The position numbers were made by a program, and so were the translations under genes. Positions 42,271 through 47,516 of a DNA stretch of 64,000 nucleotides are shown here, one piece after another; within the stretch, counting starts at the first letter, position 1; every line of letters begins with the position of its first letter. The notes below the pieces were generated by a model. The model was not told where the DNA came from. It made no database searches and was given only the letters and a program-made list of their open reading frames with translations. The stretch comes from Winslowiella toletana (lineage in GTDB: Bacteria > Pseudomonadota > Gammaproteobacteria > Enterobacterales > Enterobacteriaceae). The stretch covers positions 4,774,001 to 4,838,000 of the forward strand of contig NZ_JAGGMQ010000001.1 of the NCBI RefSeq assembly GCF_017875465.1, in the 5' to 3' direction.

Positions 42271-43989
42271 TTAGTTTGCGTTCTGCTGGTGAACGGCGAT
42301 ATAGCGTTGATAACGTGTCGCTTTCAGCTGGGTCAAATCCACCAGCACCAGGCCGTCAATACAGTGGTTAAAATCGGGATCGCTGCCGAAATCGATAAAC
42401 TGTACGCCGCCCGGCTCACAGAGTTCAGAATACTGTTTATACAGCGGTGGGATCGCGGTGCCGAGATTATTCAGCATGCGTTTTAAGCGTTTTAAATCTT
42501 CCTGGTAGTTATCGCCGGTAAACTGCGCCAGTACCGCAGGCAGGGAAGCCGGGTAGGGACGGCGTGAAGTTGCCAGCGGCAGGTTTGGCGCAAAGTAGAG
42601 TCGGTAGAATGCCACCAGCAGATCGCGCGCCGCCAGCGGCAGTCCACCCGAGATCGACACCGGGCCAAACAGATAACGGTACTGCGGATATTTCGCCAGA
42701 TAAGCGCCAATGCCCATCCACAGATAATCGAGTCCACGCTTGCCCCAGTACGCAGGCTGGATAAAACTGCGTCCCAGTTCAATACCCTGCATCAGTACAG
42801 CGTTCATCTGATTATCATAGTGGAACAGGCTCTGGCTGTAGATGCCATCAACGCCTTTGCGCGCCAGCTGCCCGGCGGTAGGCAGAAAACGGTAAGCGCC
42901 AACCACCTCCAGCGCTTCCTGATCCCACAGGATCAGATGGTAATAGTCGTCATCGTAATCATCGAGATCGCGACGTTTGCCGCTGCCTTCGCCTACGGCA
43001 CGAAAGGCGATCTCACGCAGTCGTCCCAGTTCGCGCAGAATCGGCACATAGTCTTCGCCGTTGCGCCGGTAAAGATAGATGATTTTGCCGTCAGGCAGTT
43101 TCCCCAGCACTTCACACTCTGCCAGCGCCCGCTTCAGCACCGCGCGATCTTCGGCGCGGGCAATCGCCGGTTCAGTCTGAAACAGCGCGGATTTCTCCTG
43201 ACCGAGACGATAAAGATGGCGCCGGAAACGCGCCGCCAGCTCTTTTGCTGGCGTCCGGCCGTCGTGCCAGCTGGCATAAGGAATACGTGCGCCAATTTTA
43301 AGCTTCAGTCGCTCGCCGCGATGCTTAAACATTTCACGCACCAGCAGCAGCATTGAGAGTGGCTGATAAAGCATTGAGGTGAGATAGAACAGGCCGCTGT
43401 TGTGCCCGCTGACGTGGACTGGCACCACTGGCGCACGAAAACGGGCGGCGAGGCGCAGAAAGCCGTGGCTCCATTTACCATCTTTGACGCCCTTGCTGCC
43501 GAAGCGCGACACTTCGCCTGCCGGAAAGAAAATCAGCACGCCCTGATTTTCCAGCTGATCCTGCATCTGCGTCACCTGCTGACGGCTGGTGCGGTTGCCC
43601 ATATTGTCAACCGGCACCATCAGGCTGCGCAGTGATGTCAGGCAGTTTAACAGACGGTTGGTAACGATTTTAACATCGCGCCGCACCTGAGAGACTGCAT
43701 GCAGCAGCGCCAGGCCATCGAGGGTGCCCAGCGGATGGTTAGCGACAATCACCACCGGTCCGAGACTGGGGATCTGCTCCAGGTCGCGTTCACTGAGCTC
43801 ACAACTGATATCGAGATATTCCAGCACCTGTTCCACCATATCCAGTCCCTTCAGATGGCGGTGCTGCTGGTTAAACTGCTGAAACTCCTTTTCGCGCAGC
43901 AGTAGTCGCAGAATATTTTTCTGCCAGCCCGGGGTATTTCGCTGAGGATAAAGGTCGTCGAGTACAGTTTCGATAGTAAACACAGGCAT
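42271..43989 (-). CDS. olsF: Two-domain acyltransferase, OlsF-like ornithine lipid synthase candidate
   Basis: 572 residues. N-terminal PlsC-type O-acyltransferase domain (about 60-270): NHPLGTLDG at 84-92 is the catalytic His-Asp motif and FFPAGE at 154-159 the substrate-binding motif. C-terminal OlsB/hemolysin-like N-acyltransferase domain (about 300-530): ILRELGRLREIAFRAVGEGSG, GAYRFLPT, FGPVSISG. The same fusion in Serratia OlsF makes ornithine lipids from ornithine by itself; these phosphorus-free lipids replace phospholipids under phosphate limitation. The substrate assignment is by family; a different N-acyl amino acid is possible. No Pho box identified. Confidence 0.72.
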   Translation of the reverse strand: MPVFTIETVLDDLYPQRNTPGWQKNILRLLLREKEFQQFNQQHRHLKGLDMVEQVLEYLDISCELSERDLEQIPSLGPVVIVANHPLGTLDGLALLHAVSQVRRDVKIVTNRLLNCLTSLRSLMVPVDNMGNRTSRQQVTQMQDQLENQGVLIFFPAGEVSRFGSKGVKDGKWSHGFLRLAARFRAPVVPVHVSGHNSGLFYLTSMLYQPLSMLLLVREMFKHRGERLKLKIGARIPYASWHDGRTPAKELAARFRRHLYRLGQEKSALFQTEPAIARAEDRAVLKRALAECEVLGKLPDGKIIYLYRRNGEDYVPILRELGRLREIAFRAVGEGSGKRRDLDDYDDDYYHLILWDQEALEVVGAYRFLPTAGQLARKGVDGIYSQSLFHYDNQMNAVLMQGIELGRSFIQPAYWGKRGLDYLWMGIGAYLAKYPQYRYLFGPVSISGGLPLAARDLLVAFYRLYFAPNLPLATSRRPYPASLPAVLAQFTGDNYQEDLKRLKRMLNNLGTAIPPLYKQYSELCEPGGVQFIDFGSDPDFNHCIDGLVLVDLTQLKATRYQRYIAVHQQNAN

Positions 43990-44475: not shown

Positions 44476-44835
44476 ATGTCATCGACTTCTATTCGTGAGT
44501 TAACAACTGATGAAGTCTCGGCCGTTTCTGGTGGCGGGGCGAATACATCTCATGACATTAGTATTGGTTCCCACCATGGCGCTGCTGCACTTAATGGTGG
44601 CGGTGGGGCACCGCATAGCTGTAATAACTCTGCAGGTGCTGGCGCTATTATTGGGGCCCTGGCTGGTCTACCGATGGGCGCTGGAGGGGTTATTGCAGGT
44701 GCAGTCGCAGGTGCCGCACAGGCATCTTTGTCCTGCCCAAGTAATAGCCCGTACAGCAGTAATAGTGGCAATCATAGTGGTTCGCTTGGTGGCGATGCTG
44801 ACAGCAATAGTGTCAATGGTCAGTGTCATCCGTGA
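44476..44835 (+). CDS. Class II microcin precursor with double-glycine leader
   Basis: 119 residues. Leader of 20 residues (MSSTSIRELTTDEVSAVSGG) fits the RELTxxEVxxVSGG pattern recognised by peptidase-containing ABC exporters. Mature part of 99 residues is rich in Gly, Ala, Ser and Asn, with a hydrophobic Gly/Ala stretch (AGAIIGALAGLPMGAG, 55-70) as in channel-forming microcins, a Ser-rich tail, and Cys49, Cys87 and Cys117. Length and architecture recall MccPDI and colicin V. The target and activity are unknown; the sequence is not one I recognise as named. A putative immunity gene and CvaA-type gene follow. Confidence 0.75.
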   Translation: MSSTSIRELTTDEVSAVSGGGANTSHDISIGSHHGAAALNGGGGAPHSCNNSAGAGAIIGALAGLPMGAGGVIAGAVAGAAQASLSCPSNSPYSSNSGNHSGSLGGDADSNSVNGQCHP

Positions 44836-44906
44836 CAGGAAAATAATAAAAGGTAGTATATTGCTGCCTTTTATTAAGAATATGTTCGATATAGTGAGAG
44901 GGACGT

Positions 44907-45197
44907 ATGAATAAAATAGCAAATAAAACGTTTTGGTACCGGGGGGGATTTAAAAGCAGAGAGTTCTGGGGGCAGATGTGTTGGATAATGATGAGTGGGG
45001 TGCTAATTAACTTCTCTTCACTTAAGCTGGTTCAACCCGACACACAGTACCTGGATGTTGTTTTGCTGTTTTTTATCGTGATGGGTGTTAAGTATTCTAT
45101 TTTATGCCTGTTCAGATTTATTGATTGGTATCATTCACCTCTCACTGATATGCGGCACTGCCGGAAAAATGATGCTGTACAGAAAAGAGGCAATTGA
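44907..45197 (+). CDS. Putative microcin immunity protein, two membrane segments
   Basis: 96 residues. Two hydrophobic segments at about 24-42 (MCWIMMSGVLINF) and 48-68 (LDVVLLFFIVMGV) with a basic N terminus and polar, basic tail. GAGAGGGA precedes the ATG. Short membrane proteins between precursor and export genes are the usual immunity proteins of class II microcins. No similarity to a named one is recognised. Its end overlaps the adaptor gene by 26 bases, showing one operon. Confidence 0.6.
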   Translation: MNKIANKTFWYRGGFKSREFWGQMCWIMMSGVLINFSSLKLVQPDTQYLDVVLLFFIVMGVKYSILCLFRFIDWYHSPLTDMRHCRKNDAVQKRGN

Positions 45198-46452
45198 ACA
45201 CCGAAAAAATATCTGGTCAGGAAAGGCTCTACTGCTCTCAGGCGTGCCTGTGTCTTATATGACCATTTTTACGGTTATCTTCTTTACCTGCTTTCTCTGC
45301 CTGCTTATTTTCGGCTCCTATACCCGCAGGATCAATGTTAGCGGAGAAATAGTTTCCTCGCCACGTGCCATCAATGTGTTGTCAGCACAGCAGGGCTTTG
45401 TTGTCCGGCAGATGGTAAGTGCTGGCGAAAACGTAGAAAAAGGTCAGCCGATCTATCAAATTGACGTTAGCAGAACCACCAGCTCGGGCGTAGTGAGTAA
45501 AAGAATAAGTGAGAGTATTCAACAGCAGATCAGCACGCTCAATGAAATCGCTAAAAAGATAAGGGAAAACAAAAAAATCACTCTTGATACCCTTAATCGC
45601 CAGAAAAGCCATTATGAAAATGCGCTGCAACACTCCTCTGCTATTTTGACTAAAGCGGAAGAGGGATTGCGTATAATGAAGGCGAATATGGACAACTATC
45701 ATAATTATCAGGTGCAGGGATTAATAAACAAGGATCAGTTGGCCAACCAGACTGCATTATATTATCAACAGCAAAATGAACTGCTTAATCTTCATAGCCA
45801 GAACCAACAAAATGCACTGCAAATAGTTTCGCTTCAGAGCAATATTCAGACCCAGGCGGTAGATTTTGATAATCAGTTGCATCAGCTGGAGATACAGAAA
45901 AGTTCGCTGCGCGGGCAACTCACCACTGCCGATGCAGAGAGCGAGCTGATTATTACCGCGCCGGTGGCGGGGAGAGTGGATTCGCTGAGCGTCACTACCG
46001 GACAGATGGTGGCCGTTGGCGACAGTCTGCTGCAAATTATCCCGGGCGACACCACCCGCTATTCTCTGATTCTGTGGGTGCCTGACACCGCAGCGCCTTA
46101 TCTTGCCACCGGAGACGGCATTAATATTCGCTATGATGCATTTCCCGCGGAAAAATTTGGCCAATATTCAGGACAAATCATTGCGGTTGGGCGCACGCCT
46201 GCCTCGCTACAGGAAATGGCGACTTACCCGAGTGCACCTGCCAGAAGCGCTGATAATCCACAAACCTGGTATAAAGTGGTGGTGAGTCCTGACAAAGATC
46301 GATTTTATTACAAAGATCACTGGGTTGACGCTGAGAATGGCATGAAGGCCACCAGTACGCTTTTTCTTGAGGAGCGCAAGTTGTATCAGTGGGTGCTTTC
46401 ACCCCTTTATGACCTGCGCAACAGCGCCGGGGGGCTGGCCAGTGGCAAATGA
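45172..46452 (+). CDS. CvaA/MchE-type membrane fusion protein for microcin export
   Basis: 426 residues of the HlyD family. Starts MLYRKEAIEHRKNIWSGKALLL at 45172; the open frame to 45085 lies inside the immunity gene. One membrane segment (about 28-55), a periplasmic coiled coil (about 115-290, GLINKDQLANQTALYYQQQN) and a beta-barrel/lipoyl region (VAGRVDSLSVTTGQMVAVGDSLLQIIPG). It is strikingly like CvaA of the colicin V system, and would link an inner-membrane ABC exporter to TolC. The expected CvaB partner does not follow; only a small remnant does. Confidence 0.92.
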   Translation: MLYRKEAIEHRKNIWSGKALLLSGVPVSYMTIFTVIFFTCFLCLLIFGSYTRRINVSGEIVSSPRAINVLSAQQGFVVRQMVSAGENVEKGQPIYQIDVSRTTSSGVVSKRISESIQQQISTLNEIAKKIRENKKITLDTLNRQKSHYENALQHSSAILTKAEEGLRIMKANMDNYHNYQVQGLINKDQLANQTALYYQQQNELLNLHSQNQQNALQIVSLQSNIQTQAVDFDNQLHQLEIQKSSLRGQLTTADAESELIITAPVAGRVDSLSVTTGQMVAVGDSLLQIIPGDTTRYSLILWVPDTAAPYLATGDGINIRYDAFPAEKFGQYSGQIIAVGRTPASLQEMATYPSAPARSADNPQTWYKVVVSPDKDRFYYKDHWVDAENGMKATSTLFLEERKLYQWVLSPLYDLRNSAGGLASGK

Positions 46453-46517
46453 TACCTTTGACTGGTATTGCCTCGGTTGATCGTGTGATCACTCTGACGC
46501 AAGGCGACAAGGCGTAA
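46449..46517 (+). pseudogene. Remnant of a CvaB-type ABC exporter gene (deletion scar)
   Basis: A 22-codon frame starts with an ATGA overlap with the adaptor stop, where cvaB starts in related operons, and ends IASVDRVITLTQGDKA. The IASVDRVITLTQGD part is like the C-terminal end of ABC exporters after the H-loop (IxxxDRVIxLxxG). Over 2 kb encoding the peptidase, membrane and ATP-binding domains would therefore be missing. The match is short, so this is an inference. Confidence 0.6.
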
Positions 46518-46518
46518 T

Positions 46519-47421
46519 TTAATTTATCTCTCGCTGCAACCGCGCCTGCAAGTCGCTGGCAAAGCGTCTGACCCGTGGCGAAAGGTTGTTCTCCTCTTTA
46601 AACAACATCCATGCGCGATAGGTATCCATCCGCCAGCCGGGCAGCAGGCGCGTTAATTTACCGCTGTTTAACGCGTCCTGAGTCATATAATCCGGCAGAT
46701 AGGCGATACCGGTGCCCGCCAGCGCAGAGCTCATCAGCGCGACGCTATTATTGGCGCGAAAGCGGCTGCGCACCTCAATATCCAGCTTCTGCTTATCTTT
46801 GCGAAACGGTAATGAAATGGTATGGGCCGGGCCGCGGAACAGAATATAGTCATAGCGCGGCAGATCTTCCGGTTTCTCAATTTTAGCATACTGGCGCATA
46901 TATTCCGGCGTGGCGTACAGGCCCCAGGTAATATCAACCAGCGGCTTTACCAGCGCATGTTCCGGGGCGTCCCGACCAATGACAATCGCCATATCGTAGT
47001 GATCGTCCTGCATATTTACCGGCCGGTCGGTTAAATCGAGATCGACGCTGACATGAATATTACCGGCAATAAAATTATTCAGCACCGGTACAATACACTG
47101 GCAGCCGAAGGTCACCGGCGCCGCAAGTTGCAGGTTGCCCATCGGCTCTTCATGGAAGTTGCGGATAAAGCGCTCGGCACTTTTCACTTCATTGAGGATG
47201 CGCTGGCAGTACTGATAATAGCTCTGGCCCAGCTCAGTCACCTCAATGGTACGGGTGGTGCGTTTCAGCAGTTGCGCGCCAAGACGCACTTCCAGCTGCG
47301 CAATTTCACGGCTGACAGAAGATTTCGACAGCTGCAACGCGCGCGCGGCTTCGGTAAAACTCAGGGTTTCCACCACGCGGGCAAATGCCACCATTGAGGC
47401 CAGATTTTCAATGTTGCTCAT
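46519..47421 (-). CDS. LysR-family transcriptional regulator
   Basis: 300 residues starting MSNIENLASMVAFARVVE; the frame is open 27 codons earlier but those carry no LysR pattern. HTH region TEAARALQLSKSSVSREIAQLE (about 25-47), effector domain with GNLQLAAPVTFG. It belongs to the common LTTR group with no evident target here: neighbours are the microcin remnant (convergent) and a Sua5-like gene (same direction, terminator between). Its stop is two bases past the exporter scar. Confidence 0.83.
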   Translation of the reverse strand: MSNIENLASMVAFARVVETLSFTEAARALQLSKSSVSREIAQLEVRLGAQLLKRTTRTIEVTELGQSYYQYCQRILNEVKSAERFIRNFHEEPMGNLQLAAPVTFGCQCIVPVLNNFIAGNIHVSVDLDLTDRPVNMQDDHYDMAIVIGRDAPEHALVKPLVDITWGLYATPEYMRQYAKIEKPEDLPRYDYILFRGPAHTISLPFRKDKQKLDIEVRSRFRANNSVALMSSALAGTGIAYLPDYMTQDALNSGKLTRLLPGWRMDTYRAWMLFKEENNLSPRVRRFASDLQARLQREIN

Positions 47422-47478
47422 TTTATACCCTGCGGCTTTTTTGCTGGAGAAGGGGGCATAATCTAGCACATAAATACA

Positions 47479-47516
47479 AAAAGGTCTGAGTCCTGTGAAC
47501 ACAGAACTCAGACCTT
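47479..47516 (-). terminator. Long-stem terminator of the Sua5-like gene
   Basis: AAGGTCTGAGTCCTGTG and CACAGAACTCAGACCTT form a 17-bp stem with one mismatch and a two-base loop, followed on the minus strand by TTTTT. Unusually long stem. Confidence 0.88.

Follow-up and report, generated by a model that had tools for sequence, protein, structure and literature searches.

In class II microcin systems, a C39 peptidase ABC exporter cuts off the leader of the precursor and exports the peptide together with a periplasmic adaptor and TolC. The locus at positions 44476-46517 of the stretch of DNA analysed here (64,000 nucleotides, hereafter the window) raises the question of what such a system can still do once its exporter gene is gone: it carries, all on the plus strand, a precursor, a small membrane protein, an adaptor and about 70 bases of cvaB scar. 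Our answer is that the exporter was very probably excised and secretion probably lost with it, leaving immunity as the part that could still act.

Components of the locus

The microcin operon lies between a 572-aa gene and a LysR-type gene, both on the minus strand (Table 1), in a genome of two contigs (5.3 Mb, completeness 100%). The double-glycine precursor, two-TM candidate immunity protein and CvaA-like adaptor named in a preliminary description of this DNA are all in place, as judged from open reading frames, hydropathy and the HlyD_3 domain. On inspection of the reading frames, the 641 codons of these three genes are all open, with no stop or frameshift. Scans for promoters and terminators gave no more matches than in shuffled sequence.

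Set against a complete class II microcin operon, the locus supplies the double-glycine precursor and the CvaA-type adaptor (MFP), while the C39 peptidase ABC exporter (CvaB/PCAT) is represented by a two-ended scar only. TolC is encoded in the genome (TIGR01844, 442 bits, cut-off 225), so that the ABC part is what is missing.

Table 1. Features of the microcin locus and its flanks, in window coordinates.
Feature	Position	Strand	Basis or remark
Flanking 572-aa gene	42271..43989	-	Conserved flank; 5' part and upstream DNA common to G031 and G023
Class II microcin-like precursor, 119 aa, double-glycine leader MSSTSIRELTTDEVSAVSGG	44476..44835	+	Open reading frame
Candidate immunity protein, 96 aa, two hydrophobic segments, F-[RK]-x-x-D-W-Y motif	44907..45197	+	Pairing in relatives
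CvaA-type periplasmic adaptor, 426 aa, intact	45172..46452	+	Pfam HlyD_3, 9.9e-15, over its cut-off; TIGR01843 5.8e-31, below its cut-off
5' scar of cvaB, 8 codons (M-A-N-D-T-F-D-W) from a putative GTG start	46442..46465	+	E. oleae comparison
22-codon ATG frame, out-of-frame chimera, probably not a gene	46449..46517	+	Frame comparison with E. oleae
Deletion junction, one base between two matching stretches; frame shifts	46466..46466	+	Match positions
3' scar of cvaB, last 16 codons IASVDRVITLTQGDKA and stop	46467..46517	+	E. oleae comparison
Flanking LysR-type regulator	46519..47502	-	Named from translation; DNA common to G031 and G023

Two ends of an exporter gene

The closest guide to the missing gene is Erwinia oleae, whose adaptor is 69% identical to that of the window and whose exporter frame encodes 702 aa. 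This frame most likely starts at a GTG seven bases upstream of an ATGA and overlaps the adaptor gene by 11 bases. In the window, a GTG at 46442 occupies the same position relative to the adaptor stop, again with an 11-base overlap, and positions 46448-46465 (NDTFDW) correspond to residues 3-8 of E. oleae CvaB. Positions 46467-46502 (IASVDRVITLTQ) correspond to residues 689-700 of the 702. The surviving ends match residues 3-8 and 689-700 in different frames: the gene has lost about 680 codons (2.04 kb), and its remains are fused out of frame. The earlier estimate that more than 2 kb of cvaB had been lost thus agrees with this comparison, as does the likeness that had been noticed between the end of the 22-codon frame and an exporter C terminus: the last 16 codons of that frame are in frame and contain the match to residues 689-700.

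The start of the gene has to be revised. The preliminary description took the ATGA overlap as the start of cvaB; E. oleae shares the ATGA, yet its exporter is read in a different frame, likely from the upstream GTG. The first codons of the 22-codon ATG frame are accordingly cvaB 5' DNA read in the wrong frame, and only its last 16 codons are read as in cvaB.

The 76-base scar was aligned with both termini of E. oleae CvaB. It scores 40 with the C-terminal 30 residues, a value reached by 0 of 20,000 single-base shuffles, and 32 with the N-terminal 15 (5 of 20,000 shuffles). Across the 64 kb (11,624 stretches, both strands), the C-terminal score is also reached at two other places, near 62.6 kb in an MFS transporter-like gene and near 9.0 kb in a pyruvate kinase-like gene, and the N-terminal score at one other place. 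Because the scores recur elsewhere in the window, neither is sufficient by itself; the argument is carried by the two ends being adjacent and standing where an exporter would be expected. Direct repeats at the junction, which the preliminary description had suggested looking for, are lacking at lengths of at least 8 bases in 46350-46560, and by eye the junction aligns with relatives with at most one ambiguous base. The state of the remaining genes and of the scar, taken up below, suggests that the deletion is fairly recent.

An exporter is expected beside this adaptor

The exporter comparison draws on relatives from other species, the species of the window being represented by one genome. An exporter frame stands beside the adaptor in 19 of 19 relative loci, one of them interrupted by a stop (L036, Erwinia sp. 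ErVv1). These relatives carry full exporter frames at the position in question, and the scar peptide matches the exporter C termini found there (IASADRVITLVGE, IASADRIITLNKQP and others); at the level of other species, neither outcome that the preliminary description had named as refuting was seen. The motif [ST]-A-x-R is found in 18 of 18 aligned exporters; the window scar has Val for that Ala.

More broadly, we asked for a C39 domain on the same strand within 800 bp downstream of the adaptor. Such a domain accompanies 84 of 85 adaptors, at distances of 53 to 330 bp, and the window is the sole exception. The 85 comprise 60 places found at E<=1e-70 in 44 of 217 genomes, one of the 60 being that of the window, and 25 further places in the genus; weaker adaptor matches (among them those of 30% identity or less and a 122-residue piece in G034) and two rows from G062, a genome of another family, were excluded. 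The adaptor homologues that adjoin C39 domains are 35-69% identical to that of the window. Beside six of these 84 adaptors stands a short exporter frame, of 234 to 588 codons; of the two inspected, that of G035 has a stop and that of G030 a frame change.

The precursor

The leader of the window precursor ends in VSGG. Its identity is 41% to a precursor in G028 and 37% to one in G035, and both Bacteriocin_IIc (Pfam) and the NCBIfam bacteriocin models match it only below their cut-offs. A search of 5.8 billion proteins gave no match at E<=0.01 among 515 candidates, a list in which the window's own protein is likewise missing. Plasmids searched with the precursor and the immunity protein yielded nothing; at the nucleotide level, plasmids and E. 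coli genomes contained 60-80% matches only, and none of the records covered 80% of the query. Elsewhere in its own genome, no second precursor copy appears at E below 0.3.

The mature precursor of the window ends in NGQCHP, and the adaptor-adjacent precursors of four relative loci (L034, L035, L036 and L040) end in NGQCHW. The mature N termini of some relatives (NANSNYEG) presumably resemble those of microcins PDI and S.

The immunity candidate and its relatives

The 19-residue hydropathy peaks of the small membrane protein begin at residues 24 and 51. Its candidate role in immunity is assigned from sequence: adjacency to the precursor, a pair of hydrophobic segments, and relatives that stand beside related precursors in two further genomes. 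Among the same 5.8 billion proteins, it finds the identical protein only (a single sequence, on 3 contigs).

Searched against 37 genomes, it has matches in 13 at E<=0.1, the window's own included. Related small proteins ending in F-[RK]-x-x-D-W-Y occur in four other Erwinia genomes: G031 (7.1e-15), G027 (7.1e-4), G028 (0.0012) and G035 (0.036), E-values that are weak except in G031. They were accepted as related on the shared motif together with a related precursor alongside in two. Of two hits in G003, one was rejected for want of the DWY motif and the other was left out of the comparison, together with a further weak hit in G028 and those in G016, G019, G020, G009, G018, G017 and G033.

On contig C16 of G035 (L116:4622-5148 and just upstream), an open immunity gene directly follows a related precursor, the one with 37% identity, which has an in-frame stop inside its leader. 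In G028 (L115:4555-5150) the immunity relative follows the precursor with 41% identity; the G028 genome gave no C39 match and, at E<=1e-20, no CvaA-type adaptor. Beside the immunity relatives of G027 (contig C101) and G031 no precursor was seen, and the genome of G031 has no C39 match; the G031 protein has a single hydropathy peak above threshold. In all four loci, flanks of about 5 kb or more on each side contain neither a CvaB-type exporter nor an adaptor. Two matches to CvaB in locus L118 cover the ATPase part alone and were dismissed as other ABC genes.

The same chromosomal site in other genomes

The immunity-like gene of G031 (L072:2499-2936) is bordered by the same pair of flanks as the operon of the window. 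The flanking DNA of the two genomes is 90-93% identical, whereas the immunity proteins are 43% identical, and they are therefore different alleles at one site and not one gene retained, which counts against reading them as a sign of selection for immunity. In G023, 114 bp separate the same flanks, an empty site. The site between the 572-aa and LysR-type genes may be an exchange point for microcin cassettes.

Probable excision of the exporter and the state of the remaining genes

We propose that this is a chromosomal class II microcin operon that once comprised a precursor, an immunity gene, a CvaA-type adaptor and a CvaB-type exporter. A deletion of about 2.04 kb, presumably one event, has taken the exporter and fused 8 codons of its start to 16 codons of its end out of frame. 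The precursor may still be made; lacking the peptidase-exporter, it would be neither cleaved nor exported, so that killing would be lost. The immunity protein could still protect the cell against microcins of the same type and, because a membrane immunity protein needs no exporter, immunity is the part that selection could keep. Within this scheme, loss of secretion is likely and the precursor of the locus is probably not exportable, while it is roughly as likely as not that immunity is under active selection.

The most serious alternative accepts the same deletion and regards the whole locus, immunity included, as neutral debris on its way to being lost. We give this plain decay real weight, though we lean against it. 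On the window branch, the adaptor has accumulated 100 non-synonymous and 92 synonymous changes, against counts of 43 and 71 for the E. oleae branch (Fisher p 0.018; three-way parsimony with G056 as outgroup), an excess that hints at relaxed constraint on the window adaptor in a count that is weak because synonymous sites are probably saturated. The Val in the scar, at an Ala kept in 18 of 18 exporters, and the 114 bp that are all G023 has between the same flanks point in the same direction. Against decay stand the 641 codons without stop or frameshift and the adaptor itself, which in an alignment of 20 adaptors shows no departure at columns invariant in the other 19, as do five others of the 20. 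Taken together, the open frames and the conserved adaptor columns mean that decay has hardly begun or that something still constrains the locus.

The only other C39 exporter in the genome

Excision of the exporter would leave secretion intact if another exporter took over, and the preliminary description had raised the possibility of a peptidase-containing exporter elsewhere. One does exist, as part of a different RiPP system. The genome has one C39 match, in an XyeA/XyeB triceptide operon at about 3.067-3.074 Mb (G000:C1; L032:7883-13606) with an XyeA precursor (TIGR04495, 2.8e-25), an XyeB maturase (TIGR04496, 2.3e-238), an adaptor and the C39 exporter. By reading of the sequence, and with no family match, the operon also encodes a retropepsin-like protein. 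The XyeA and XyeB families were both found at the 3.07 Mb operon, and neither matches the microcin genes of the window. Another full-length but distant CvaB match (24%; C1:830625-832685) adjoins a TolC-family gene and has no C39 family match.

Could the microcin be processed and secreted by the triceptide C39 exporter, working with its own adaptor or with the retained CvaA-type adaptor? The parts are at hand: the genome has one intact C39 exporter and TolC, the microcin and triceptide leaders both end in VSGG, and the retained adaptor is intact at otherwise invariant columns. The triceptide exporter, however, shares only 39% identity with E. oleae CvaB, even though it heads the genome matches listed. 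In the exporter tree its branch is very long, and the tree program cautions that such branches can be placed wrongly. The adaptors of the triceptide operon and of the window are about 23% identical, and the triceptide operon has a precursor and a maturase of its own. We therefore regard such borrowed export as unlikely and do not treat it as the default. Slightly more doubtful still is a rewired microcin, in which the precursor, perhaps with the retained adaptor, uses the triceptide exporter and the deletion was tolerated for that reason; if true, one exporter would serve two unrelated antibacterial peptides.

An assembly or sequencing error that dropped an exporter actually present is very improbable. 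With one genome of the species, the deletion could be strain-specific or, less likely, such an error, and the two-contig assembly with 100% completeness, the lack of a junction repeat on which an assembler could collapse 2 kb and the lack of a close exporter copy among the genome matches listed all argue against the latter. Harder yet to credit is that the 22 codons encode a genuine small protein at a place that never had an exporter. The frame has no internal stop and overlaps the stop of the adaptor gene, but the two ends of an exporter can be recognised there in two different frames, and a C39 domain adjoins 84 of 85 adaptors.

Relation to known systems

The arrangement of the locus is that of the microcin V system (cvaC, cvi, cvaA, cvaB and TolC) and other class II operons. 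The window shares with them the precursor, the immunity candidate and the adaptor, with TolC elsewhere in the genome, and, in the place where the exporter would be expected, it keeps the remains of a C39 peptidase ABC exporter. It differs from microcin V in that the exporter is deleted and in that the precursor and immunity protein are without close relative in the protein collection searched, the precursor having no match there and the immunity protein matching only itself. The triceptide operons come into the comparison in that one of them holds the genome's only other C39 exporter and adaptor found, and they differ from the microcin locus in precursor, in their radical SAM maturase and in the distant branch of their exporter.

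Incomplete microcin loci have been described. E. coli isolate 0143I is reported to carry variant cvaC and cvi without cvaA or cvaB, a combination that its authors suggest is nonfunctional (PMC6723558). Like that isolate, the window lacks a complete export gene set beside its microcin and immunity genes; there, both export genes are absent and no scar is described, whereas the window keeps an intact adaptor and a scar that shows the event. Orphan bacteriocin immunity genes, according to another study, occur on 243 E. coli plasmids, 53 of them for microcin immunity, and whether they arise by toxin loss or by immunity gain is stated there to be unknown, with gain favoured for plasmids (PMC12546727). 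The window resembles those plasmids in having immunity without a working weapon, and differs from them in being chromosomal, in a genome assigned to Erwinia by inference, and in keeping precursor and adaptor. Its immunity candidate is not an orphan in the sense of lacking a cognate toxin gene; the precursor gene is still present and open. Our literature searches found no paper joining microcin, orphan immunity and exporter, and none joining triceptide, XyeB and Erwinia.

The loss of an exporter is a known kind of event, here clear and unusually legible, at one of the 85 adaptors counted. It is possible that the window locus is an intermediate of the toxin-loss route, and it would then catch a plausible first step in the loss of a weapon, with the exporter gone and toxin, shield and adaptor still open. 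The order of loss is testable because the Erwinia immunity relatives look like further stages: a precursor with an interrupted leader, a precursor in a genome where no C39 exporter was found, and immunity alone. The locus also bears on genome mining. A third study reports one microcin candidate without a local adaptor gene and uses a filter for export genes anywhere in the genome (PMC13174018); mining that asked for no more than this would score the window locus as complete.

Other disrupted microcin loci were noted among the relatives. The stop in L036 (G035:C7) and the frame change in L121 (G030) mark broken microcin exporters that may be real or sequencing errors. Finally, a fragment of a CvaA-type adaptor at L122:4591-4914 (G034) is interrupted by a stop and has no CvaB-type exporter beside it, apparently a decayed microcin locus.
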